This document shows, piece by piece, positions 2,668 to 57,897 of a stretch of DNA of 64,000 bases (its first letter is position 1; each line of letters begins with the position of its first letter). The stretch lies in NCBI RefSeq assembly GCF_007741535.1, contig NZ_CP036525.1, forward strand, positions 434,001 to 498,000, given 5' to 3'. Under the pieces are notes generated by a model. It saw only the letters and a program-made list of their open reading frames with translations. It did not search any database and had not been told where the DNA came from. The position numbers were made by a program, and so were the translations under genes. This stretch comes from Rubripirellula lacrimiformis (GTDB taxonomy: Bacteria; Planctomycetota; Planctomycetia; Pirellulales; Pirellulaceae).

Positions 2668-3810
2668 ATGAAGACTTTCAAGCGTTATTGCCTGACCGCA
2701 GCGATCGCCGCTTTCTCTGTGGTGAACACAAATGCCGCCGACATCGTCGACACCGCGGTGGGGGCCGGTTCCTTCCAAACATTGGTCGCGGCCGCCAAAG
2801 CAGCGGGTTTGGTCGACACGTTGAAGGGAGATGGTCCGCTGACCGTCTTTGCACCCACCGATGCCGCTTTCAAAAAGTTGCCCGCAGGCACGGTCGAGTC
2901 ACTGCTGAAGCCCGAGAACAAAGCGAAGCTTGCCGCAATCCTGACCTACCACGTCGTGCCAGGAAAGGTGATGGCAGCCGATGTCGTGTCTCTGACCGGA
3001 GCGAAGTCTGTCCAAGGTCAGCAGATCGACATCAAGGTCGACGGTTCCACCGTCATGGTCGATGGTGCGACCGTGGTGAAGACGGACATCGATTGTGACA
3101 ATGGTGTGATCCACGTCATCGATTCTGTGATCTTGCCCGCGGACAAGAACATTGTCCAGACTGCGGTCGGGGCCGGTTCGTTCAACACACTTGTCGCTGC
3201 GGTTAAGGCAGCCGGATTGGCCGAAACACTGTCCGGCGATGGTCCGTTCACCGTGTTCGCACCGACGGACGAAGCGTTCGCCAAACTGCCAGCCGGAACG
3301 GTCGAGTCGCTGTTGAAGCCAGAAAACAAGCAGAAACTGGTCGACATCTTGACCTACCACGTCGTCGCAGGACGCGTCTATTCAGGCGATGCGGTGGCAG
3401 CCAAGACAGCCAAAACTTTGCAACGGTCGTCGATTGCAATCAAGGTGGGCGATTCCGGTGCGATGATCAACGACGCGGGGTTGGTATCGACCGACATCGA
3501 CAGTTCCAATGGTGTGATCCACGTGATCGATTCGGTGCTGATGCCGCCGGCAAAGGGTGCTAGCGTGCAACAGGTGCTGCATGGTGCCATTGTGCAGGGA
3601 TCCCAAATGTTCAACGCTGGGCACCACGGGGCCTGTGCAGACATCTATAGTGAGACGTTGCACGGGTTGATGAATGCCAACGTCGAACCGTCGCTTCACC
3701 ACCAAATGACCAGCGTCATCCAGATGGCCGATTCGCAACAATGCCCCACGACACGTGCGTGGACTTTGCGTCGCGGAATCGATCAGATGTACGTCCAATT
3801 GGCAAAGTAG
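2668..3810 (+). CDS. secreted protein with two fasciclin (FAS1) domains
   Basis: The 380-residue product starts with a signal peptide ([10 protein letters not shown], cleavage likely after NTNA near residue 24). Two FAS1 domains follow, at about 25-157 and 158-297. Each has the H1 motif TVFAPTDxAF, the LTYHVV segment and the closing [10 protein letters not shown] box. The C-terminal 80 residues, from about 300, are not FAS1; they contain several His and Cys residues ([18 protein letters not shown]). FAS1 domains generally mediate adhesion or matrix binding outside the cell. The gene ends 46 bp before an ECF sigma factor on the same strand, so it may be a target of, or cotranscribed with, that regulator. 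Confidence 0.93.
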
Positions 3811-3856
3811 ACGTTCGTGTCTTCTGAATGCTTGATCACACTCCGGAAATGACCTC

Positions 3857-4468
3857 GTGACTGAATCGGTTCTGATGCGTATCGCGGCAGGCGATCGCTC
3901 CGCTGTCGACGACTGTTTAGATTGCTACGGTGGTCTGATCTGGTCGTTGGCCAAGCGGTGGATCGGGAACGTTGACGACGCCGAAGACGCCGTGCAGGAA
4001 ATTTTTGTGGAACTTTGGCAACAAGCCGGGCGTTTTGACCCGGCGGTTGCGGCTGAATCGACATTTGTCGCGATGATCGCTCGACGCAGGTTGATCGATC
4101 GTCGCAGGAAACAGTCGAAAGCACCTGTCATGGAATCGATCGTTGTCGACCAAGTCGACACGGCTTTGGAAAGCGGATCGGAAGAAGTGATGGTTCGCGG
4201 CGAAGAAGCGGATCAAGCCAAGCTATGCTTGGACAAGTTATCGTCGACTCAGCAGAAAGTGCTGACGATGACGGTCTATCACGGAGCATCCCATACCTTG
4301 ATCGCTGGCAAGCTCTCGTTGCCCTTGGGCACGGTCAAGTCCTACGCTCGCCGAGGCCTGATCCAGTTAAGGGACTGCATGCAACGCAGCGCGGATGCTG
4401 TCGAAGCGACTCGCTTGGCGGCTGGTGGTGCGGCGGGAAGAGTTACCGCGACAGGGAGTCGATCATGA
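3857..4468 (+). CDS. ECF-type RNA polymerase sigma factor
   Basis: A 203-residue sigma-70 family protein. Region 2 lies at about residues 5-90 with the typical DAEDAVQEIFVELW segment near residue 35. Region 4 lies at about 120-185 with a helix-turn-helix around SHTLIAGKLSLPLGTVKSYARRGL. The frame opens with GTG at 3857; an ATG five codons further on (3872) is an alternative start. It ends in an ATGA overlap with the next gene, which encodes a membrane protein of anti-sigma type, so the two are probably translated together. The family normally directs extracytoplasmic stress genes; the likely target here is the FAS1 gene upstream. Confidence 0.92.
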   Translation: MTESVLMRIAAGDRSAVDDCLDCYGGLIWSLAKRWIGNVDDAEDAVQEIFVELWQQAGRFDPAVAAESTFVAMIARRRLIDRRRKQSKAPVMESIVVDQVDTALESGSEEVMVRGEEADQAKLCLDKLSSTQQKVLTMTVYHGASHTLIAGKLSLPLGTVKSYARRGLIQLRDCMQRSADAVEATRLAAGGAAGRVTATGSRS

Positions 4469-5286
4469 GTTCATCATCATCCTCGCCGACTCCATCGGAA
4501 TGGGACGAATTGTTGGCTGGCGAAGCGCTGGGCGATCTCGATTCGGCCGAGCTGCAGCGGCTCGACAATCACTACCCCCAAGGGCGTCCCGAATCAGGTG
4601 CCGATCTCATGCGGACCGCGTCGGCGTTGCATTTGGCGTTATCGTCGAAAGATTCCGACCGGCTGCCGGATCATCTGCGACAAAAGATTGCAAGCGATGC
4701 CGCCGCGCACATACCCGCCCAACCAACCGTGACGCTTGACCCGGGGCAGCAGTGGAGTGTTCGTCCGGGCGTTTCCATGCGCGAGCAGATCGCGTGGTTG
4801 GCGGCGGCAGCGTGCTTGTTGCTCACCATCGGCGTTTGGGTCAGCCGGGGACCAGAAATCGGTGTGGGCCAAAGCGGTGGTGGTTTAGCAATGGACTTCG
4901 GAAAACAACGCCAGCAACTGCAAACGTCCGAAGATCATCTGGAGATCAGTTGGACCCCAGGCACCACGCCATTCGACAATCCGGTATCGGGCGATGTGGT
5001 GTGGAGCAATTCGCAGCAAAGTGGGTTCATGCGTTTTGTCGACATGCCCATCAACGACCCGTCCCAAGAACAGTACCAATTGTGGATCATCGATCCGGCC
5101 CGTGACGACGAACCGATCGACGGTGGCGTGTTCGACGTCACAAAGTCGGGCGAGGTGATCGTGCCAATCGACGCCAAGCTGCAAGTCATCGATCCGGCTG
5201 CGTTCGCCATCACGATCGAAAAACCCGGCGGCGTCGTCGTTTCAACCCAAGAACGTCTGCCCCTACTAGCGTCTGTGATACGGTAG
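4465..5286 (+). CDS. RskA-like transmembrane anti-sigma factor
   Basis: The 273-residue product starts at the ATG of the ATGA junction at 4465-4468; the longer upstream frame overlaps the sigma gene and is rejected. The cytoplasmic N-terminus (about 1-105) is acidic and starts with a WDELLAGEALGDLD segment typical of anti-sigma domains of this class. No zinc-binding HxxxCxxC motif is present. One membrane helix lies at about 109-127 (IAWLAAAACLLLTIGVWV). The exported part, about 150-273, matches the RskA C-terminal pattern, with YQLWIID and the closing FAITIEKPGG block. It would hold the cognate sigma factor at the membrane until a signal releases it. Confidence 0.85.
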   Translation: MSSSSSSPTPSEWDELLAGEALGDLDSAELQRLDNHYPQGRPESGADLMRTASALHLALSSKDSDRLPDHLRQKIASDAAAHIPAQPTVTLDPGQQWSVRPGVSMREQIAWLAAAACLLLTIGVWVSRGPEIGVGQSGGGLAMDFGKQRQQLQTSEDHLEISWTPGTTPFDNPVSGDVVWSNSQQSGFMRFVDMPINDPSQEQYQLWIIDPARDDEPIDGGVFDVTKSGEVIVPIDAKLQVIDPAAFAITIEKPGGVVVSTQERLPLLASVIR

Positions 5287-5470
5287 TCCCCGTGCCCGCG
5301 ATTGTTCGCTAAAGTGGCCGGGCGTGTCGGGTGCGTGCCAGTGACGAAAGGTTGCGACCCGGTCAACGTATCTAGCGGTGTTCTTGGGTTTGTAGTCGGC
5401 CGATGCGGTGCATCCCGCGATCTAGAATGCCACGGCGCACAATCGTCACGATGGTCGAAGCAGAGCAAAC

Positions 5471-5937
5471 ATGAATCTGGACAGTTGGCTGACGGTCGTA
5501 CTGTTGACGTTGGTCGCTGGCTTGGCGATGCCGTTAGGAGCGTTCCTGGCCAGTTTGAAATGGACAAAGAACGCGCGGGTTCGAAGCGAGTTCCAGCATT
5601 TGGTTGTCGCGTTCGGCGGAGGGGCATTGTCCCGGAAGGTTTCAATTCAGCGATCGAGCTTCGCGAAAGAGCGGGCATATCATCGTCTCGAATCATTGTT
5701 GCTTTTACACTGATGGCACTGCTGGGCCCCACCGTTGGCTTGACTGGGCTGTTCTGGCTTTCTGCCTATCCGGTCGTGGTGGCGAAGGTGATGCTGTTTT
5801 CCGCTGCCGGAATTCTGTACCTGACATTCCAGGATATCGCTCCTCAATCAAAGCTCGATCGATCTTGGATTCCCGCTCTGGGGGCCGTTGCTGGGTTCCT
5901 GCTTGGGCTGGTTGGGAAAATGTTGGTTGGATCCTAA
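5471..5937 (+). pseudogene. ZIP-like metal transporter, broken by internal deletion/frameshift
   Basis: Two reading frames each hold one part of a single membrane protein. From the ATG at 5471 the first frame gives a helix (LTVVLLTLVAGLAMPLGAFL) and runs to FGGGAL near 5625. The second, in another frame from about 5633, resumes with VPEGFNSAIELRERAG and continues through helices at about 5695-5760, 5765-5820 and 5875-5930 to the TAA ending at 5937. FGGGAL and VPEG are usually separated in ZIP-like proteins by a further half-helix that is missing here, so a deletion of a few tens of bases with a frame change is likely. The open frame from 5302 is only a chance extension of the second part. A sequencing error could explain the frame change but not the missing segment. 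Confidence 0.65.
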
Positions 5938-6089
5938 TGGACTTCAGCGGCGGCAAACGTTGGCTGCGGATGCTAGTCTAATCGGAAGATCCGGTTGTCA
6001 TTGGCCGATGGTTTTGGGCGTCGTTGGCAATGCGAACATGCCATCCGTTGGATCTTCTCGCCACAAAAGTTCGGGCATCAAGAGTCATC

Positions 6090-7571
6090 ATGAATTCATC
6101 TTTATCACGGCAGTTTCCAGTTTTAGCCATCGTTGTTTTGGCGGCTTTGCTGTTGGCTTTGTGCCCCTGTGAAGTGCAGGCGGATAGGCCGAATGTTCTT
6201 TGGATCTATGTCGACGATATGAGCGACTGGATGGGGTGCTATGGTGATCCGATCGCTGAAACACCGAACATTGACCGCCTTGCCAGCGAAGGCGTTTTGT
6301 TTCAGCACGCCTACATACCGGCCCCCGTCTGTTCGGCGGCGCGCTCCGCGTTGATCACCGGTACCATGCAAACAACCCATGGTTTGCACCAGCATCGGAC
6401 CATGATCAAAAAGCCTTTGCCCGATGATTTGTTGACCGTTGCGGAACTGTTTCGCACTGCTGGATACCTGACGTTCAACGAAGCGAAGGACGACTACAAT
6501 TTCAAGCGAGACCGCGACCTGATGTACTCGCCTGAGTTTCAGCGTCCTACGACCCGGCAGGTCCATTCACACATGCTGGGACGCGACGTGTCCTGGTTGA
6601 AACAGTTGCAAGGCAAGACGTTCTTCGGGCAAATCCAACTGAAGGGCGGAAAGTTTGGCGGCGAAACCGGCGCGAAGTATCCGGCCGAAAGCGATGTGGA
6701 GGATGACCAAGTTGCGGTACCGCCCCAGTACCCCGATCATCCTGTGTTTCGAAACGCGATCGCCCGCCACTATCAACAGATTTCGGAAACGGACCAGCAG
6801 GTCGGAGCGATCGTGTCCGGATTGAAGGAATATGATTTGTGGGACAACACGGTCGTGTTCTTCTTTACCGATCACGGAAGTCCGTTGCCGCGGTCCAAGC
6901 AGTTCTTGTACGAAGACGGCACCAAGATTCCGCTGATCGTACGATTGCCTGAAAGTGTTGGAACCGACGTGAAGTCTGGATCCACACGATCCGATCTAGT
7001 TAGCGGCATCGACATTCCCGCCAGTTCTCTCGGATTGGCAGGGATCGACATCCCCCAGTTCATGGAAGGGCGAGACCTGTTCGCCGATCGATACCAGCCA
7101 CAGCAGTTCGTGATCTCGGCGCGTGATCGGATGGGCAATGCAATCGATCGGATTCGCACCGTACGATCCAAACGGTTTCGCTACATTCGAAACTACATGG
7201 TCGACCGCCCGCTGTATCAGCCACAGTATCGTGACGGATACGCAACGTTTGTGACGATGCGAAAGATGTTAGCGGCAGGTCAGCTTAGCCCACTGCAGGC
7301 GTCCTATTATGATGCCGATGATCGTCCCGTCGAAGAGTTGTATGACCTGATCAACGACCCCCATCAGACGTTCAACTTGGCCAGCAACCCGGACTTTGAA
7401 TCGGTCCTGAATCAGCATCGTGATCACCTGCAGCAGTGGGAAGAAAGCACGGACGACAAAGGACGCTATCCAGAGAGTCGCGAATCGCTGCGGTTGGTGT
7501 TCCAGTCATCCCAGGGGAAGTGTGTTTCGCCCGAGTACGACTTTTTGAAGGCCGAATCACAGGATAAGTAA
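6090..7571 (+). CDS. secreted sulfatase (S1 family)
   Basis: A 493-residue formylglycine-dependent sulfatase. The ATG at 6090 is chosen because it directly precedes a signal peptide (hydrophobic stretch about 10-25); the open frame upstream gives no sensible residues. Mature sequence begins near RPNVLWIYVDDM, whose Asp pair binds the metal. The maturation motif is CSAAR, with C81 the residue converted to formylglycine. TDHGSPLPRSK near 275 matches the second metal-ligand region, and the end shows the family's ELYDLINDP block. Substrate is not predictable, though heparan- or other polysaccharide-type esters fit the family. The TAA stop lies in the left edge of an inverted-repeat element, so the natural C-terminus may have been changed. 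Confidence 0.93.
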   Translation: MNSSLSRQFPVLAIVVLAALLLALCPCEVQADRPNVLWIYVDDMSDWMGCYGDPIAETPNIDRLASEGVLFQHAYIPAPVCSAARSALITGTMQTTHGLHQHRTMIKKPLPDDLLTVAELFRTAGYLTFNEAKDDYNFKRDRDLMYSPEFQRPTTRQVHSHMLGRDVSWLKQLQGKTFFGQIQLKGGKFGGETGAKYPAESDVEDDQVAVPPQYPDHPVFRNAIARHYQQISETDQQVGAIVSGLKEYDLWDNTVVFFFTDHGSPLPRSKQFLYEDGTKIPLIVRLPESVGTDVKSGSTRSDLVSGIDIPASSLGLAGIDIPQFMEGRDLFADRYQPQQFVISARDRMGNAIDRIRTVRSKRFRYIRNYMVDRPLYQPQYRDGYATFVTMRKMLAAGQLSPLQASYYDADDRPVEELYDLINDPHQTFNLASNPDFESVLNQHRDHLQQWEESTDDKGRYPESRESLRLVFQSSQGKCVSPEYDFLKAESQDK

Positions 7572-23357: not shown

Positions 23358-23443
23358 CGCTTCCGTTGAAATGAGTCGCTACGTTGCTGATCGCTGTTCG
23401 AAGCTGCACCGGTTGGTGGCTTGATCCTGTGCCCGATCGGGCC

Positions 23444-23541
23444 CGTGCTTGTTCGGACCCGTGCTTGTTCGGACCTGTGCTTGTTCGGACCTGTGCTTGT
23501 TCCGGTCCTGTGCTTGTTCGGCCCTCTGCTTGTTCCGGTCC
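23444..23541. repeat. 16/17-bp tandem repeat, six units
   Basis: Units of the form TGTGCTTGTTCGGACC (with a 17-bp variant TGTGCTTGTTCCGGTCC) are repeated six times. They occupy the 332 bp gap between the leftward DAC gene and the rightward Dabb gene. The unit is not a multiple of three in all copies, and the open frames through it are artefacts. Otherwise this gap (23358-23689) holds nothing recognisable. Confidence 0.88.
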
Positions 23542-23689
23542 TGTGCACCACTGGGCCCCGCATCCGCTGGCGCCATGTCCGCTGTGGCACCGTATCCACT
23601 GATACTGGGCCACCTGTCGTTTGGTCTCTACAATGCCGCGGTCGCCGCAGCAGGCGATCGTCCCATTCTTTCACTCCGGAGTCATCACC

Positions 23690-28521: not shown

Positions 28522-29388
28522 ATGGATCAGCCATCCCAAGGTCATCTGGATTTGCGGAGTCAAGCGTTGTCGGCCGTTGGGCCATGGCCGTTCACAACAC
28601 GCGTGGCGTTGGAGATTGGCGGAGTGATCCGTCAACGGACCTCTCGCAGTCATCGCAAACGAGTTTCCGAGGCTTGTTCGAGTCATTCGGCTAGCCCCGA
28701 TTCATGGGCGCGAATCAGCCACCGATTGAACCTGTGGATTGGTTCGGTCTTTGCAATCGGTGCGTTGCTTTTTGCGGTCGCCAGCGGGTTGGCGTTGATG
28801 CCCGCGATCGCAGGGCACGTGTTCGACCAACCACGCATCAATGCAATCTACTTTGCGGGATCGATCCCGTTCACGATCGCGGCTTGGTTGCAGTTGTATC
28901 AGGCTGCGAACGCCGGTGAATTGGATTCTGGGACGGTCGATTCCGATCGTCGGTTTCTGTTCGGATGGTTCCCGCACCGGATTGGATGGACCAGCAGCGC
29001 GTTGCAGTTCATGGGCACTGTGTTGTTCAATCTGAACACTTTGGATGCGATGTTGCCGACGCTGAATTGGTTTCAACAGGACCTGTTGATTTGGTTGCCA
29101 GATTTTGCGGGATCGGTGTTGTTCCTGGTTTCGGGTTACCTAGCGTTCATCGAAACCTGTCATCGGTACTGGGCTTGGAAACCCCGAAGTCTTGCCTGGT
29201 GGATCGTGTTCATCAATCTGGCCGGGTGTGTCGGGTTCATGTCGTCGGCTGTGTTTGCATGGGTGTCCCCCGGCGCTGCGAACCCCGAATTTGCAACCTT
29301 TGCGACGATGTTGACTTTGCAGGGTGCGGTTTGCTTTCTGGTGGGGGCGTTGCTGATGTTGCCAGAGGCCGGGATCGGGTCTGCTTAG
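28522..29388 (+). CDS. multi-pass membrane protein of unknown function
   Basis: A 288-residue protein starting at the ATG at 28522; a TTG five codons upstream is the only other start. After a basic N-terminal ~75 residues, about six to seven hydrophobic segments follow, at roughly 77-99, 107-123, 160-178, 190-208, 220-241 and 258-279 (LWIGSVFAIGALLFAVASGL is the first). No family motif was recognised. It lies 54 bp after the glutamate decarboxylase gene on the same strand and is probably cotranscribed with it. It is not a GadC-like amino-acid antiporter by length or sequence. The stop codon sits inside a 15-bp tandem repeat. Confidence 0.75.
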   Translation: MDQPSQGHLDLRSQALSAVGPWPFTTRVALEIGGVIRQRTSRSHRKRVSEACSSHSASPDSWARISHRLNLWIGSVFAIGALLFAVASGLALMPAIAGHVFDQPRINAIYFAGSIPFTIAAWLQLYQAANAGELDSGTVDSDRRFLFGWFPHRIGWTSSALQFMGTVLFNLNTLDAMLPTLNWFQQDLLIWLPDFAGSVLFLVSGYLAFIETCHRYWAWKPRSLAWWIVFINLAGCVGFMSSAVFAWVSPGAANPEFATFATMLTLQGAVCFLVGALLMLPEAGIGSA

Positions 29389-29471
29389 ATCAGGTCTGCT
29401 TAGATCAGGTCTGCTTAGATCAGGTCTGCGGTGATCAGGTCTGCGGTGATCAGGTCTGCGGTGATCAGGGA
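29373..29471. repeat. 15-bp tandem repeat across the stop codon of the membrane protein gene
   Basis: Six units: one GATCGGGTCTGCTTA, two GATCAGGTCTGCTTA and three GATCAGGTCTGCGGT, then a partial unit. Unit 1 lies in the coding end and provides part of the TAG stop (29386-29388). Units two and three repeat the same in-frame TAG; units four to six do not. Confidence 0.92.
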
Positions 29472-49178: not shown

Positions 49179-50231
49179 CTACCGCCCACGCCAAATCGGT
49201 AGGTCGATCGTTTCCCAACGTTTCGATTGGATCGACCGATAGCTAGCGTCGACAATGGCGTTCACGACGTATCCGTCGTAGAACGTCTCGGAGGGCTGGC
49301 GTCCTTGGTCCATGGCGTCCAGCATGTCGGTGAACATGGTGTTGTATCCCAACGCCGCGACTTCATCGCCGACCGGGAACATCCAGCCACCGCTGCGTTC
49401 CGATTTTTCGGTGGTGCACTGGGCGCTGTCCTTCGCCGAATACATTTCCATGCCTGTGCGTAGCCAGTGATTCAGCCACAGAGTGCCCTCGGTGCCGGCG
49501 ACTTCGTCGCGCAGGTCCATGCCACCGCGAAATGCCCAACTGACCTCGAATTGACCGATCGCTCCGTTTTCATAGCGAACCATGCCAATGGCATGATCTT
49601 CCGCTTCGATCGGATGCACTTGCGTGTCGCCCCAACACACGACTTCGACCGGGCGGATGTCTTTGCCAATGAACGCGCGTGCGATTTCGATGCAGTGGCA
49701 GCCTAGGTCTATGATGGCACCTCCACCGGCTCGTTGCTGGTTCCAGAACCAATCGCTATGCGGTCCTGGGTGCGTTTCGCGAGATCGAACCCACAGGATT
49801 CGGCCCAGGTCACCGGCCTGAACCGATTGCAGGCCTTTGAGTGTTTTGGGCGGATAGACCAAGTCTTCCAGATAGCCGTGGAACACGCCCGCGGCTTCTA
49901 CGGCGCGCAGCATCCGCAACGCTTCAGCGGAACTGCGTCCTAGCGGTTTGGTGCACAGCACGGCTTTGCCCGCTTTGGCTGCCGCCATCACCGCCCGTTC
50001 GTGCAGGTCGTTCGGCAGCGCGATGATCACGGCGTCCGTGGAATCGTCACCGATTGCGTCATCCAGGTTTGCCGTCCAGCGGTCAACGCCCCACTTCGCA
50101 GCGAACGCCGCCGCGTTCTCCGGCGATCGTGAATACACCAGTTGGACACGGTCGCGGCTGCGCCCGGCGTGCAGTGCCTGCGTATAGGACGATCCAATCA
50201 GGCCAGTGCCCAGCATTGCAATGCGAGTCAT
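49179..50231 (-). CDS. Gfo/Idh/MocA family oxidoreductase
   Basis: A 350-residue NAD(P)-dependent dehydrogenase. The Rossmann motif GTGLIGSSY lies at 8-16, and [16 protein letters not shown] near 92 carries the family's catalytic Lys (xKPL). [19 protein letters not shown] near 168 is the C-terminal domain's signature with the catalytic His. It would oxidise or epimerise a sugar or inositol-type polyol. The start codon overlaps the stop codon of the PhyH gene (TGATG), so the two are translated together and probably process the same substrate. Confidence 0.92.
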
Positions 50232-51001
50232 CAGCTGGACACCGATTCGGAAGTCAATCGCTTACCGACGCGTGCATCATCCCAGCGCTGCAAGGGCTCG
50301 TAACTGGCATGTTTGCCGGTGATGAACGGGTCGTTATGTCGTGTGTTGTAGCAGCAGATCAATGACCAACGCGGATGTTCGCTTTCGTTCTTGTCGCTGC
50401 GGTGCAGCAGGTTGGCATGAAAGAATAGGACATCCCCCGGCTGCATTTCGCAGTAGACCAGTTCATGGTGCTTCATTGCCTGTTCGACTCGCACCATATC
50501 CGCCCCGGCCTGTTGTCCCGACTTGCCATGATCGACCCGGCCTATCTTGTGAGAACCTTTCAAGACCTGCAGGCATCCATTTTCTCGGTTGGCTCGATCG
50601 ACCGCCAGCAATGCGCTGCCCATGTCGGGGTACAAGCAACCGAAGTCGTACCAATACCCATAGTCTTGATGCCATTCCCAGGCACCGCCGACACGCGGCT
50701 CCTTCAGCATCATTTTGTGGTGATAGTGATAGATTTCGGAACCGAGGAACGCTTCCATTGGATCGACGATGCGGCGCGAACGCACGATCGCCGTGTACAT
50801 GGAATCGTCGTCCAGGTGATTGCGAAGCGCCAATCGGCTCTCGCCACCGGTGGCATCCTTTCGAGTGATCGCTTCCGCATCGAGTTTGCGATCACCTTTG
50901 GAATAGCGGAGCAGGCCAGCCATTTCATCGGCGTCGAAAACATTGGGGATCAACACGTAACCGTCGCGATGAAAATCTTGAACTTGGTCGGTGGTTGGCA
51001 T
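50231..51001 (-). CDS. phytanoyl-CoA dioxygenase (PhyH) family protein
   Basis: A 256-residue Fe(II)/2-oxoglutarate-dependent oxygenase. The metal-binding motif HxD is H111/D113 in [10 protein letters not shown], and the distal His is H200 in [10 protein letters not shown]211 in [10 protein letters not shown] would bind 2-oxoglutarate. The length fits the family. PhyH enzymes hydroxylate diverse substrates, and in planctomycetes they often lie near Gfo/Idh/MocA genes, as here. It starts at the ATG at 51001. The gene upstream in the array direction is absent; a large repeat array begins 163 bp beyond its start. Confidence 0.92.
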
Positions 51002-51164: not shown

Positions 51165-53964
51165 CGATCCGCTACTGGATCGTTTAACCGTGCGGGCAAA
51201 GCCCCACGCGTGTATGGGTGAAACGCGTGATCCGCTGCCGGATCGTTTAACCGTGTGGGCAACGCCCCACGCGTGTATGGGTGAAACGCGTGATCCGCTG
51301 CCGGATCGTTTAACCGTGCGGGCAACGCCCCACGCGTGCATGGGTTGAAACGCGTGGCCCGCTGGGCACACGGTTAAACGATAGCGGGCGACGCACCGGG
51401 AGAGGTTCCGTCGAGTCGTGTGATCCGCTGCTGGATCGTTTAACCGTGCGGGCAACGCCCCACGCGTGCATGGGTGAAACGCGTGGCCCGCTGCTGGATC
51501 GTTTAGCCGTGCGGGCAACGCCCCACGCGTGCATGGGTGAAAGGCGTGGCCCGCTGCCTGATCGTTTAACCGTGCGGGCAACGCCCCACGCGTGCATAGG
51601 TGAAACGCGTGGCCCGCTGGGCACACGGTTAAACGACAGCGGACGCCGCTTCGCGTCGGGTTCCGTCGTGTCGTGTGATCCGCTGCTGGATCGTTTAACC
51701 GTGCGGGCAACGCCCCACGCGTGTATGGGGTGAAACGCGTGGCCCGCTGGGCACACGGTTCAACGACAGCGGACGCCGCACCGCGTGAGGTTCCGTCGAG
51801 TCGCGTGATCCGCTGCTGAATCGTTTAACCGTGCGGGCAACGCCCCACGCGTGCTTGGGTTGAAACGCGTGGCCCGCTGGGCACACGGTTAAACGATAGC
51901 GGACGCCGCTTCGCGTGAGGTTCCGTCGAGTCGCGTGGCCCGATGCCGGATCGTTTAACCGTGCGGGCAACGCCCCACGCGTGTATGGGTGAAACGCGTG
52001 GCCCGCTGGGCACACGGTTAAACGACAGCGGACGCCGCACCGCGTGAGGTTCCGTCGTGTCGTGTGGCCCGCTGCTGAATCGTTTAGCCGTGCGGGCAAC
52101 GCCCCACGCGTGCATGGGTGAAACGCGTGGCCCGCTGGGCACACGGTTAAACGACAGCGGACGCCGCTTCGCGTGAGGTTCCGTCGTGTCGTGTGATCCG
52201 CTGCTGAATCGTTTAACCGTGCGGGCAACGCCCCACGCGTGCTTGGGTTGAAACGCGTGGCCCGCTGGGCACACGGTTAAACGATAGCGGGCGACGCTTC
52301 GCGTGAGGTTCCGTCGTGTCGCGTGATCCGCTGCTGGATCGTTTAACCGTGTGGGCAACGCCCCACGCGTGCATGGGTGAAACGCGTGGCCCGCTGGGCA
52401 CACGGTTAAACGACAGCGGACGCCGCTTCGCGTGGGGTTCCGTCGTGTCGCGTGATCCGCTGCTGGATCGTTTAACCGTGCGGGCAACGCCCCACGCGTG
52501 TATGGGTTGAAACGCGTGGCCCGCTGGGCACACGGTTAAACGACGGCGGACGCCGCTTCGCGTGAGGTTCCGTCGTGTCGCGTGATCCGCTGCTGGATCG
52601 TTTAACCGTGCGGGCAACGCCCCACGCGTGTATGGGTGAAACGCGTGGCCCGCTGGGCACACGGTTAAACGATAGGGGGTGACGCTTCGCGTGGGGTTCC
52701 GTCGTGTCGTGCGATCCGCTGCTGGATCGTTTAACCGTGTGGGCAACGCCCCACGCGTGCATAGGTGAAACGCGTGGCCCGCTGGGCACACGGTTAAACG
52801 ACAGCGGACGCCGCACCGCGTGAGGTTCCGTCGTGTCGCGTGATCCGCTGCTGAATCGTTTAGCCGTGCGGGCAACGCCCCACGCGTGCTTGGTTGAAAC
52901 GCGTGGCCCGCTGGGCACACGGTTAAACGACAGCGGACGCCGCTTCGCGTGAGGTTCCGTCGAGTCGTGTGATCCGCTGCTGAATCGTTTAACCGTGCGG
53001 GCAACGCCCCACGCGTGCTTGGGTTGAAACGCGTGGCCCGCTGGGCACACGGTTAAACGACAGCGGACGCCGCTTCGCGTCGGGTTCCGTCGTGTCGTGT
53101 GATCCGCTGCTGGATCGTTTAACCGTGCGGGCAACGCCCCACGCGTGTATGGGTGAAACGCGTGGCCCGCTGGGCACACGGTTAAACGACAGCGGGCGCC
53201 GCTTCGCGTGGGGTTCCGTCGAGTCGTGTGATCCGCTGCTGAATCGTTTAACCGTGCGGGCAACGCCCCACGCGTGCATGGGTGAAACGCGTGGCCCGCT
53301 GGGCACACGGTTAAACGATAGGGGCGCCGCTTCGCGTGAGGTTCCGTCGTGTCGTGTGATCCGCTGCTGGATCGTTTAACCGTGCGGGCAACGCCCCACG
53401 CGTGTATGGGTGAAACGCGTGGCCCGCTGGGCACACGGTTAAACGATAGCGGCGCCGCTTCGCGTGAGGTTCCGTCGAGTCGCGTGATCCGCTGCTGGAT
53501 CGTTTAGCCGTGCGGGCAACGCCCCACGCGTGCTTGGGTGAAACGCGTGGCCCGCTGGGCACACGGTTAAACGATAGCGGGCGACGCTTCGCGTGGGGTT
53601 CCGCTGTGTCGCGTGGCCCGCTGCTGGATCGTTTAACCGTGCGGGCAACGCCCCACGCGTGCTTGGGTTGAAACGCGTGGCCCGCTGGGCACACGGTTAA
53701 ACGACAGCGGACGCCGCACCGCGTGGGGTTCCGTCGTGTCGTGTGATCCGCTGCTGGATCGTTTAACCGTGCGGGCGACGCCCCACGCGTGCTTGGGTTG
53801 AAACGCGTGGCCCGCTGGGCACACGGTTAAACGACAGCGGACGCCGCACCGCGTGAGGTTCCGTCGTGTCGTGTGATCCGCTGCTGAATCGTTTAACCGT
53901 GCGGGCAACGCCCCACGCGTGCATAGGTGAAACGCGTGGCCCGCTGGGCACACGGTTAAACGAT
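51165..53964. repeat. 2.8 kb A/B hairpin repeat array, about 44 modules of ~64 bp
   Basis: Two module types alternate. A is GATCCGCTGCTGGATCGTTT plus AACCGTGCGGGCAACGCCCC and ends ACGCGT; B is GGCCCGCTGGGCACACGGTT plus AAACGACAGCGGACGCCGCT and ends near GTCGTGTCGT. The first eight modules read A-A-A-B, A-A-A-B; after that A-B alternates about 18 times and the last B is cut short at 53964. The sequence TCGTTTAACCGTG in A is the exact complement of CACGGTTAAACGA in B. The array has no unique spacers. On the minus strand two frames lack stops over long distances, giving false ORFs with PARLND and HAWGVARTVKR repeats. It lies between the start of the PhyH gene and the end of the sulfatase gene at 53983. 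Confidence 0.95.
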
Positions 53965-53982: not shown

Positions 53983-55458
53983 CTACTCGGCGCTGCGGCC
54001 TTTCGGGGTGTCGTAATAGGCTGACATCTGTTTCCACCACGCCTCGAGTTGCGGTTTCATGGCGTTCACGATGGTGGGGTGCGATTGGGCTACGCTGGCT
54101 TGTTCGCCGATGTCGTTCTTTAAATCGAATAGCTGCAGGGACGTGCCATCAGGATGCATCAGTAACTTCCATCGCCCGTCACGCATCGCCAGTGGCGGGC
54201 TGATGTGGTCTGGGTTTCCTGGTTGGATGCTGCCGTGAACACCGTACTCCCAGAAGATCGGAGCATCACGGTCCGTCGGCATTCCCAATAGCGCCCCGGA
54301 CATGTCGATGCCGTCCGTTGGTTCGGTGGGTTCCACGCCACAGATCGATGCGATCGTTGGCAGGACATCGATTGCCGCCATGACCGTGCGGTCGTCGGTG
54401 GTAGCGGGCGCGATCTTGCCAGGCCAGCGAGCGATGAATGGCATGCGAATGCCGCCCTCGTACAGACTCCACTTGCGACCGAACAATGGTCCAGTGAAAC
54501 CCGGCGGATCGAAACCTTTCTTGTAGTAGCGAGGCCAGTCGGTGGGCCCATTGTCGCTGGTGAACAAGATCAAGGTATCGTCGGCTAACTGCAGGTCATC
54601 GATCGCGGTCAACAGTCGGCCAATCTGTCGGTCCATCTCGTCCAACACGGCAAAGAATTCGATGTCCGGAGGATTCTTGGACGTACCAACCCATTTTTGA
54701 TGTTGTTCATCCGACGGTGCGTGCCCATCGTGCACGTCATTGGGGAAGACACGTAGGTAGAACGGTTGGTCGTGGTTCCGCGTGATGAAGTCGATCGATC
54801 GATCCACGTAGGTTTCGGTTGTCTTGTGCTTGGGCAAGTCCAGAATTTCACCCCGGCCGTGTTCCCAGCTCTGTTCTTGATTGCCCGTTTTCTGCCACAG
54901 GATCCGATCGCCCAGTCCTTCGAAGGAAACGAGGGATTCGTCGAAGCCATATTCTTGGGGCAGCGGAGCGTCGCCGACGTCGCGGCCACCGCCCATGTGC
55001 CATTTTCCAAAGTGTGCGGTTCGATACCCGGCACGCTTCAGTAGCTTGGCCAGTGTCGGAGCCGATGGGTCTAGCCAATCCGGCATTTGGCGATCGCGAT
55101 TTGATTCGCGAGTGGCAAGGTACGAATGGATCCGATGTCGCTGTTGATATTGGCCGGTGGTCAACGCCACTCGCGAAGCAGAGCAGATGGGCGAATTGAC
55201 ATAAAAGTTCGTCAGACGAATGCCCTCATTGGCCAGTCGGTCAATGTTGGGAGTCTTCATGGCTGGGTTTCCGAAGCAACTCGGATCCGCGTACCCCATG
55301 TCATCGATGAACAGGACCACAACATTGGGGCGGAGATGGTTCGTTTCGATCGCTGGTTGCTGGCCTCGGGACGATGGGCAGCACGTCAGCAGGATGAAGG
55401 TCGCTAACAGGCAAGTGGCTGGTTTGCTGCGGAAGGTTAGCATCGGCTGGATGGTCAT
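53983..55458 (-). CDS. secreted sulfatase (S1 family)
   Basis: A 491-residue sulfatase on the minus strand. The ATG at 55458 is chosen, with another at 55443; the frame is open 141 codons further upstream but that part is not protein-like. A signal peptide with CLLATFILLTCCPSSRG is cleaved before about residue 33. VVLFIDDMGYADPSC gives the metal ligands, and CSASR carries C92 as formylglycine precursor. GKWHMGGGRDVGDAPLPQEY, RVFPNDVHDGH and FTSDNGPTDWPR are active-site blocks. It is divergent from the next sulfatase, with a 180 bp gap, and its 3' end lies 18 bp from the repeat array. Confidence 0.94.
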   Translation of the reverse strand: MTIQPMLTFRSKPATCLLATFILLTCCPSSRGQQPAIETNHLRPNVVVLFIDDMGYADPSCFGNPAMKTPNIDRLANEGIRLTNFYVNSPICSASRVALTTGQYQQRHRIHSYLATRESNRDRQMPDWLDPSAPTLAKLLKRAGYRTAHFGKWHMGGGRDVGDAPLPQEYGFDESLVSFEGLGDRILWQKTGNQEQSWEHGRGEILDLPKHKTTETYVDRSIDFITRNHDQPFYLRVFPNDVHDGHAPSDEQHQKWVGTSKNPPDIEFFAVLDEMDRQIGRLLTAIDDLQLADDTLILFTSDNGPTDWPRYYKKGFDPPGFTGPLFGRKWSLYEGGIRMPFIARWPGKIAPATTDDRTVMAAIDVLPTIASICGVEPTEPTDGIDMSGALLGMPTDRDAPIFWEYGVHGSIQPGNPDHISPPLAMRDGRWKLLMHPDGTSLQLFDLKNDIGEQASVAQSHPTIVNAMKPQLEAWWKQMSAYYDTPKGRSAE

Positions 55459-55638
55459 TCGGGATGGCGTGGGGGGGCGGGTCGGTTCGTATTGTATTGC
55501 CCCGATCACGACGAGGGGATCCAGCCTGCCAGACAGGCTTGGTGCTAACAGGATAGTCGTTCGATCGTCCCCGCGCTGGCTCGATCGACTACGCTGGGGG
55601 GAAGTTCTATTTCGGCCAGCATTTACGAAAAACTCGCT

Positions 55639-57897
55639 ATGAAACACTGCATCTTCTTGCTCGGCTTGACGCTTTCTGTTTTGGTGGCCAAGGGGGCCCA
55701 TGGGATCGATTCGGCACGCCCGAACATTTTGTATTTCTATGTCGACGACATGGGATGGGGATCCATCGGGCCCAATGGCCAGGCCGCTCGCAAAGCCCAG
55801 GGGTTGCCGTACGTGCGGACGCCCAACTTGGATCAGCTTGCGGCCCAGGGTGTCAACTTTACCCGTGGCTATGGCTGTCACGTTTGCTCTCCCGCTCGAT
55901 CATCCCTGCAAACAGGTTTTCACCAGGGGCATACCTTTGCCGATCGCAACGATCCCGACAACGCTCGGAAAGCACTGCGTGCCGATGACGTGTTGGTCGG
56001 CGATGTGTTATCGGCGGCCGGCTATGTGACGGGATACTGGGGCAAGTGGGGGTATGGCGGATCGAAGGATCAGGTCGATCCAGTCATCCAGAACGTGCAG
56101 ACGTTGCCAACCCAGCATGGTTATACGCACGTGTTGGCCGAACTCCATCACGTGCGTGCGCATACGTTCTTTCAGCCGACTTTGTGGAGTGCGCCTGCGG
56201 TGCCCGGAGCTGTTGGTGGCATCCAGTTGGTGCCCAATTCGATGACGCGATATCAGGGCAACGTGTCTTATCCGAACGCGCCGGCAAATCAGAATCACGC
56301 TGACTATCCTGCGACGGCCTACTGTGACGACTCGTACGCCTTTGCTGCATTGGATTTCGTGCGCACGCAGGGTCAGAACTACAATCGCACCGGGCAACCA
56401 TTCCATGGACTTCTTGCCGTCCAGATCCCTCACGCTCCCTTCGGTGAGATCGCGTCGCTGCCACAGTGGGACGAAGGATACGCCAACGATCCGAAGTTTT
56501 CGCAGCTCTCGGATCAGACTCGACAGTGGGCAGCCATGGTGACCCGTATCGACGCCCACTTTGGCAATCTGTTGGCGGCGCTCGATGACCCGAACAACGA
56601 TGGGGATACATCGGATTCGATCGCGGACAATACGCTGGTGATTTTTCAGTCCGATAACGGAGGCCCCGGTGGGGGCAGTCATGTTGAACTGAACGCAAAC
56701 GGTGGTCTACGCGGTACCAAGGGCATGATTCAAGAAGGCGGTATTCGAGTCCCGTTTCTGATGCGGTGGCCAGCAAAAATTTCGACCAACACGGTGTTGA
56801 AGGCGGGGACCGATAGCGACATGGTCGTCGACGTGACCGATCTGTTGCCGACTTTCTGTGAACTGGCTGGCGTGCCGGTGCCGCTGGGAATCGACGGTGT
56901 GTCGATCGCGCCGACTCTGCTTAGCAAAGGACATCAACGGCATCGGGATTTCATCATCCACGAAGCGAGCAATGGTCAATCCATCATTCGTGGCAAATAC
57001 AAACTGGTGCGTTCCAAACGATCCCCGCTGAAACTTTACGACCTGGATGCGGATGCGGCAGAGACAACCGATATCGCAGCCGATCATCCCGACTTGGTCA
57101 GCGAGATGGAAACGCTGCTGTTGGGCGAACGGGTTGCCGAGCCAAAAGGATTCGCCAACACGTATCACCGCTGGACAGGCCGCGACGGTGCCTCGACGGA
57201 TGATCCCGACAACTGGTCCGACTACCAGTACTCCAACGCTGGCATCACCTACATGCAGGATCCGGGTTCGCCGCAGTTGTCATGGGTGGCAAGGATCCGG
57301 AATGATGGCGACAGTGACAACGTCGCGGTTGCGAACTCCGACCTAAAAGTTCTGGGGCTGGAGATTCGTGGCGGTGCGGATGCCAGCCAATCGTTGCTGC
57401 TTGGGCCCGGTGTCAACTTGGTTGGTCGCAATGAAATTCGGTTGGCTGCAAATGCTAGGTTGACGGTTCATGACGCTGTCGTGTCGACGCTGCGTTGGAT
57501 CGATATTCAACCCACCGCCACCTTGGTTGGCCAAGGAACGATCGATGGCACCCTCTACAACGACGGGCTGGTTGCCGTGACAGGCACCAATCGCCCCAAG
57601 CTAGTCGTCCATGGCGACTATCATCAGTCGGCCGAGGGCAGGCTAAAATTGTCACTGACAAATGATGGGAACTCGGTGCTTTCAGTCACCGGACACGCCA
57701 ACCTCGATGGTGTGCTCGCGATCGAAACGACCGCCGGGTTTCGTCCCATTCCCGGGGGTGCGTTCGCCGTCATCGAATCCCAAGCAATCACAGGCCGATT
57801 CGCCAACGCCGGTGACGAAGTTGTCGCGGGAGACGGTCGACGCTTTGGAATCGAGTATTCACAGTCGACGGTGACTCTTGTCGCACAGGAACGATAA
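55639..57897 (+). CDS. secreted sulfatase with long C-terminal beta-helix-like extension
   Basis: A 752-residue protein with a signal peptide (CIFLLGLTLSVLVAKGAHG). The sulfatase domain, about residues 27-500, has YFYVDDMGWGSIGPNG, the formylglycine motif CSPAR with C83, TGYWGKWGYGG, QIPHAPFGEI and FQSDNGGPGGGSH. From about 515 an extra region has repeated strands (LLGPGVNLVGRNEIRLAANA, ATLVGQGTIDGTLYNDGLVA, LKLSLTNDGNSVLSVTGHAN), a pattern of autotransporter-like or polysaccharide-binding beta-helices. It ends in a typical AIESQAITGRF-like tail. It leads into the DUF1592 gene with 32 bp between, so it may be the first gene of the operon. Confidence 0.93.
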   Translation: MKHCIFLLGLTLSVLVAKGAHGIDSARPNILYFYVDDMGWGSIGPNGQAARKAQGLPYVRTPNLDQLAAQGVNFTRGYGCHVCSPARSSLQTGFHQGHTFADRNDPDNARKALRADDVLVGDVLSAAGYVTGYWGKWGYGGSKDQVDPVIQNVQTLPTQHGYTHVLAELHHVRAHTFFQPTLWSAPAVPGAVGGIQLVPNSMTRYQGNVSYPNAPANQNHADYPATAYCDDSYAFAALDFVRTQGQNYNRTGQPFHGLLAVQIPHAPFGEIASLPQWDEGYANDPKFSQLSDQTRQWAAMVTRIDAHFGNLLAALDDPNNDGDTSDSIADNTLVIFQSDNGGPGGGSHVELNANGGLRGTKGMIQEGGIRVPFLMRWPAKISTNTVLKAGTDSDMVVDVTDLLPTFCELAGVPVPLGIDGVSIAPTLLSKGHQRHRDFIIHEASNGQSIIRGKYKLVRSKRSPLKLYDLDADAAETTDIAADHPDLVSEMETLLLGERVAEPKGFANTYHRWTGRDGASTDDPDNWSDYQYSNAGITYMQDPGSPQLSWVARIRNDGDSDNVAVANSDLKVLGLEIRGGADASQSLLLGPGVNLVGRNEIRLAANARLTVHDAVVSTLRWIDIQPTATLVGQGTIDGTLYNDGLVAVTGTNRPKLVVHGDYHQSAEGRLKLSLTNDGNSVLSVTGHANLDGVLAIETTAGFRPIPGGAFAVIESQAITGRFANAGDEVVAGDGRRFGIEYSQSTVTLVAQER

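Follow-up and report, generated by a model that had tools for sequence, protein, structure and literature searches.

The window, a stretch of 64,000 nucleotides (64 kb) of Rubripirellula lacrimiformis DNA that spans positions 434001-498000 of the chromosome, contains a long tandem array between two co-directional genes. It lies behind a sulfatase gene and in front of a gene of the PhyH family; the true start of the sulfatase is probably further in than that of its longest ORF. The array is real: Tandem Repeats Finder describes it with a period of 129 bp (21.7 copies, 90% matches, score 4350) or of 259 bp. Modules of two types, A and B, number 44 in total at up to four mismatches. They are mostly arranged as A-B dimers of 129-130 bp, with a dimer spacing of 128-130 bp, and a covariance model recognises 20 complete dimers and four places where A stands alone. 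With the same model, at E up to 1, no further unit occurs elsewhere within the window. Since the genome is assembled as one 8.54-Mb contig, a short-read artefact is unlikely, while the copy number of the array is not thereby proven. Tandem Repeats Finder also reports two short tandem repeats in the window, at 23426-23546 (16-bp units) and 29373-29469 (15-bp units).

Table 1. Features of the array and its neighbours (window coordinates), and copies of the associated insertion sequence (coordinates in the genome, G000).
Feature	Position	Strand	Basis
Whole array: 24 A (REP) and 20 B (inverted REP) modules	51166..53963	+	Tandem Repeats Finder, module count, covariance model
First of the 20 complete A-B dimers (REP, linker, inverted REP)	51306..51381	+	Covariance model
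A-only units at the left edge, 63-bp spacing	51180..51289	+	Partial model matches 51180-51226 and 51243-51289
Two more A-only units	51436..51561	+	Partial model matches 51436-51482 and 51499-51561
Last complete dimer, its end 20 bp short of that of the sulfatase ORF	53889..53963	+	Covariance model
Left neighbour: PhyH-family dioxygenase gene, array upstream of the gene	50231..51001	-	Pfam PF05721, E 1.8e-36
Right neighbour: sulfatase gene (longest ORF), array at the gene's 3' end	53983..55881	-	Pfam PF00884, E 2.3e-49
IS copies L251-L260	2676703, 4298693, 5580286, 5797639, 3634260, 5270000, 5544346, 5582432, 5602137, 7699943		

Read toward each other, A and B consist of the same 9-base foot, TCGTTTAAC, and a short GC-rich hairpin, in opposite orientations. 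Each hairpin has an 8-bp stem, one unpaired base and a 3-nt loop. Together, the two modules are a REP and an inverted REP, the plan of a BIME. The consensus of the foot is CGTTTARC. At positions 2-9 of the 329 full units collected from the chromosome, CGTTTAAC is found in 217, CGTTTCAC, a variant also present in the R. lacrimiformis genome, in 67 and CGTTTAGC in 12. The first 14 bases of these units contain GTAG in none of the 329, so that we do not file the element in the GTAG superfamily.

The fold of the unit was assessed on 34 units, one per locus, with L062 left out. In a structure of two hairpins, 99.6% of the cells are paired and both partners have changed in 16 cells, compared with 2.4 in shuffles (0/500); further pair types are not above shuffles (317/500). 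A cloverleaf of the whole dimer is favoured by single-strand folding (z -3.9) and has 95.3% of its cells paired, with six both-side changes, above most shuffles (17/500). The compensatory changes nevertheless favour two separate hairpins, and we reject the cloverleaf as the functional fold: each hairpin seems to be conserved on its own. Of the 18 Rfam matches obtained at E up to 5, not one comes near a gathering score.

Copies within the window array are similar, and 19 aligned units differ by 100 substitutions and 10 indels, with single-base changes predominating. All four allele combinations occur in 81 of the 91 pairs of variable sites; variants have therefore been reassorted among copies, recurrent mutation possibly accounting for part of the pairs. 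Identity is constant with distance along the array, at 0.936 both for adjacent units (lag 1) and for lags of 6 and above. A units that follow one another occupy all three reading frames, which rejects a coding array. A CRISPR is rejected on its spacers, as the spacer itself repeats within the array and there are no unique ones. An earlier note on this DNA had described about 44 copies of two alternating modules, of low and mostly single-base divergence, with recombination among copies as one possible cause of their uniformity and with neither unique spacers nor a coding explanation; these points all stand, including the signs of recombination. Its two module types are also found, now as inverted versions of one foot-plus-hairpin element.

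The array is one member of a large family. At up to two mismatches, the A half occurs 575 times (338 + 237) in the 8.54-Mb chromosome, and a reversed-pattern control yields 0 + 0 matches. We examined 35 loci, the window and 34 others, which are part of the family, as the genome holds further places; together the 35 carry 329 full units, and 30 of them contain three or more. Where a locus has two or more units, these point one way in 31 of 32 cases, the remaining locus (L044) having 20 of 21 units in one direction. When neighbours are simply taken as the longest ORF, which in a few loci is an IS gene, a short ORF or the RAYT described below, arrays lie between convergent genes at 20 of 33 loci, between co-directional genes at 12 and between divergent genes at one. 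The excess of convergent placements has p = 1.5e-5 against an assumed quarter, which is not a measured background. Array periods are 96-129 bp, leaving short spacers between units.

Variation is unevenly distributed along the period. Per site and within arrays (n = 26), it amounts to 0.038 and 0.053 in the hairpins, 0.074 and 0.084 in the feet, 0.099 in the linkers and 0.141 in the spacers. Over the full period, identity is 0.90 within and 0.72 between arrays (n = 30); arrays thus differ by their spacers. Identity between the 30 arrays drops weakly with chromosomal distance (Mantel rho -0.086, p 0.024), a decay too slight for local hopping to be relied on as an explanation. Two neighbouring features were seen at individual loci. 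At L049, an IS66-family transposase gene (3675-5432, minus strand) separates two parts of one array. At L047, a short array with a repeat of about 30 bases and varying spacers, CRISPR-like in look, occupies 5896-6459, some 2 kb from the REP array.

The hairpins are also the target of an insertion sequence. A 1.57-kb IS, whose transposase carries DUF772 and DDE_Tnp_1, is present in the genome in 10 identical copies, and each of the 10 interrupts the B hairpin at its three-base loop (GCCC-NNN-GGGC); both orientations occur. In nine cases the loop bases are found at either end of the IS, the exception being L255 (GCT and GAT). Two further copies with 73-74% identity are likewise found among the repeats. 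This loop specificity independently hints at recognition of the hairpins within the cell.

One of the 35 repeat loci, L054, contains a gene with repeats of the array family on both sides. Its 204-residue product (L054:1696-2307) is encoded by a single-copy gene and resembles the REP-associated tyrosine transposases, or RAYTs. The best curated family is NF047646, REP_Tyr_transpos (E 4.4e-12), at 46.1 bits, under the cut-off of 80; with Pfam Y1_Tnp the score is 21.6, just under the cut-off of 23. All 13 aligned RAYT proteins match NF047646, and all 13 have both HxH and YVxxNP. H102, H104 and Y172 are invariant in 13 of 13 and in 21 of 21 aligned proteins, N176-P177 in 13 of 13; by homology, the first three would be the HUH motif and the catalytic tyrosine. 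Among the hallmarks of RAYT or TnpA-REP proteins given in the passages of PMC2817692 on their motifs are NP(L/V)(R/K)xG after the tyrosine and a fully conserved threonine near the N-terminus. The looser motif NPx[KR]xG is present in 10 of our 13 proteins and the strict form in two; threonine is absent from the invariant N-terminal columns of the 13-protein alignment (A2). A profile of 21 relatives matches PDB entries weakly, an ISDra2-type TnpA at E 0.002 and the TnpA-REP 4er8 at E 0.011. Judged by its sequence, the L054 protein is best classed as a divergent RAYT, of a putative clade that scores under the NF047646 cut-off.

These results change the picture of an isolated array. The earlier note had taken it for a single locus, which it is not. 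It had also seen no transposase beside the array; a linked RAYT-like gene sits inside another array of the same family and an IS targets the repeats. The search that it had proposed, for other arrays and for a linked gene, turns up dozens of arrays in the same genome, the RAYT at L054 and, as follows, the foot near RAYT relatives in other planctomycetes.

In the family Pirellulaceae, the RAYT has matches in 47 of 241 genomes at E up to 0.001, strong ones in about 30; at that threshold, the 21 other genomes of the genus yield no match. At many of the relatives' loci, inverted repeats combine the same foot with a hairpin that differs from lineage to lineage. Exact TCGTTTAAC is present in 23 of the 30 RAYT loci of the family search (L079-L108, our own included). 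The nearest relatives, L080 and L113, share the hairpin type of the window. A contig scan with the single RAYT protein as query found no relatives. With alignment A2 as query, the scan gave 378, of which we analysed the best 80; these are nearly all planctomycete, L168 being titled Vicinamibacteraceae. The most widespread 8-mer within 500 bp of these 80 genes is CGTTTAAC, at 33 loci (2.8 occurrences expected), and CGTTTAGC lies within the same distance at 26. Taken together as CGTTTARC, the foot is found within 500 bp at 56 of the 80 loci, on both sides at 43, and is absent from 24. Where 400 bp or more is available on each side of the gene (63 loci), the foot lies on both sides in 35 and in a strict inverted arrangement in 25.

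The foot variant (AAC or AGC) agrees with the RAYT tree: 57 labelled rows need three changes, versus 18 in shuffles (0/500), in a tree of 98 rows where near-copies help such clustering. Other Y1 transposases were considered as partners of the repeats and rejected. A full REP occurs at none of 32 such loci and a stray foot within about 3 kb at seven of the 32, the set comprising four loci of our own genome (L001-L004, of which L002 and L003 overlap) and 28 from ten relatives, out of 112 matches.

Amplification of an old palindrome, homogenised by slippage and unequal crossing-over alone, would make the RAYT a chance resident of one array. The reassorted variants and the lack of decay along the window array are in keeping with such a plain satellite. 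So are three relatives, G167, G168 and G171, which have at least 19-20 repeat-model hits each and no RAYT of the L054 clade; nine of their 26 other Y1 loci were examined and are without such repeats. RAYT loss in these genomes is possible, by analogy with the loss of REPtrons reported for E. coli strains in the relevant part of PMC3733652. One repeat family at 35 chromosomal loci needs dispersal, however, and the foot recurs at RAYT relatives that have different hairpins, its variant following their tree. We hold a satellite without transposition to be rather unlikely. The conserved hairpins, with their compensatory changes, and the placement of arrays, often between convergent and rarely between divergent genes, could instead reflect a tandem structured non-coding RNA or a transcription-termination block acting in RNA at gene 3' ends. 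Rfam offers no match near its gathering score, the model is matched by units on both strands and the spacers differ between loci, all of which makes such a primary function very unlikely; a role in RNA or termination is compatible with the data as a secondary one.

Another candidate is the integron, its attC sites having a motif that we take to be RYYYAAC...GTTRRRY. The GTTTAAC...GTTAAAC of the dimer fits, and the arrays might then be attC clusters without cassette genes. The genome encodes two integron integrases over the TIGR02249 cut-off, L071 (G000 2970738-2971676) and L072 (G000 192198-193013). Across the family, 122 of 241 genomes have one over the cut-off: 20 of the 26 with repeat-model hits versus 102 of the 215 without (Fisher p 0.006). 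The corresponding figures for a strong RAYT hit are 7 of 26 and 23 of 215 (Fisher p 0.027), so by co-occurrence alone the integron integrase does better than the RAYT; both co-occurrences may track genome size. Against the integron stand the loci themselves. Exact TCGTTTAAC is absent from all eight examined loci with matches to the integron-integrase model, two of them over the cut-off, and the short periods leave only short spacers between units. Moreover, the complete genome G168 has at least 20 repeat-model hits and no integrase over the cut-off, and the same foot accompanies RAYT genes with other hairpins. An attC identity of the repeats is unlikely, and the reading of the arrays as cassette-less attC clusters strikes us as extremely improbable.

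The remaining explanation, a RAYT/REP system, has well-described counterparts. As set out in parts of PMC8266576, PMC2817692, PMC3733652 and PMC1525189, a REP and an inverted REP are joined by a linker, often in tandem, the hairpin is bulged, copies number in the hundreds and a HUH-Y1 gene is framed by REPs; known REPs are mostly found in the intervals of co-directional and convergent gene pairs, and IS elements target them. Our elements share with the BIMEs and REPtrons of PMC8266576 and PMC2817692, as their texts outline them, both the tandem REP-linker-inverted REP and a RAYT gene flanked by REPs that are abundant in the genome, and with the GTAG superfamily the short imperfect hairpin with an unpaired base. 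They differ in the foot (CGTTTARC, not GTAG), the divergent RAYT clade, the 2.8-kb array with 20 dimers and the planctomycete host. The CGTTTARC system nonetheless seems to work like a member of the GTAG superfamily.

Two further groups come close. TIRtrons, with their TIRYT genes, are RAYT-like genes with long flanking inverted repeats, some self-complementary and some forming dispersed or clustered families, and R. baltica has very many tyrosine transposase genes flanked by repeats, as well as several families of REPs, according to the text of PMC3733652. Flanking inverted repeats at RAYT-like genes are thus common to both systems. The motif named in that text, GGGGWSAS, is not the CGTTTARC foot; the figures of PMC3733652 may already show part of what is described here. 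Class 3 TnpA-Y1 proteins, as characterised in the section of PMC6006769 devoted to them, occur mainly in Planctomycetes, Acidobacteria and Proteobacteria and are flanked by atypical secondary structures that can reach high copy number. The planctomycete occurrence and the abundant flanking structures recall our system, whereas the motif of class 3 is Y----Q and its foot CnGA in that section; the protein described here shows the YVxxNP of class 2 and goes with a CGTTTARC foot. Elements that insert selectively into REPs are known as well, IS1397, ISKpn1 and IS621 being those named in the pertinent lines of PMC1525189. The IS found here shares this preference for REPs with them, as far as those lines describe it; it differs in its DUF772/DDE transposase and in its restriction to the triloop of one hairpin, in 10 of 10 identical copies. 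In the literature, a search for GTTTAAC with palindromes gave nothing on REPs by title among the matches listed, and no match joined repetitive extragenic palindromes with Rhodopirellula. Nor did any join REPIN with planctomycetes, in a poor search that used a truncated word as a whole word.

We conclude that the window array is probably a tandemly amplified BIME of a planctomycete RAYT/REP system with the unusual tag CGTTTARC. Its REPs would be recognised on single-stranded DNA, through foot and hairpin, by the single-copy HUH-Y1 RAYT, as TnpA-REP does in E. coli. By cleaving such elements, the RAYT, probably a domesticated transposase, would most likely have dispersed them, and we infer that it mobilises the repeats. 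Once a dimer had landed, the dimer and a piece of the adjoining spacer would have been amplified in tandem, and unequal crossing-over, slippage or gene conversion may then keep the copies of an array uniform. For the window locus, no close sulfatase ortholog lies beside the PhyH matches in the genus. A genus-wide search (22 genomes) returned best full-length PhyH matches of 48-55% identity, and a sulfatase within about 1.5 kb, 24-35% identical to that of the window, at eight of the 29 loci outside our own genome; no orthologous junction or empty site was found among them.

On balance, and with some hesitation, we favour a broader proposal. The CGTTTARC REPs would form a third large tagged class beside GTAG and CGTC, with a RAYT clade of their own across Planctomycetota. 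In some lineages they would build, at dozens of sites, satellites as long as 2.8 kb, and these would serve as private landing sites for a loop-reading IS. The biochemistry of TnpA-REP, to the extent that the sources above cover it, comes from E. coli, Stenotrophomonas and Marinomonas, whose REPs are all GTAG-tagged. A different foot on the same plan would mean that natural variation could test what a RAYT reads: the foot, the bulge or the loop. The satellite-like arrays, in turn, offer a bacterial model for the passage from short mobile repeats to homogenised satellites.
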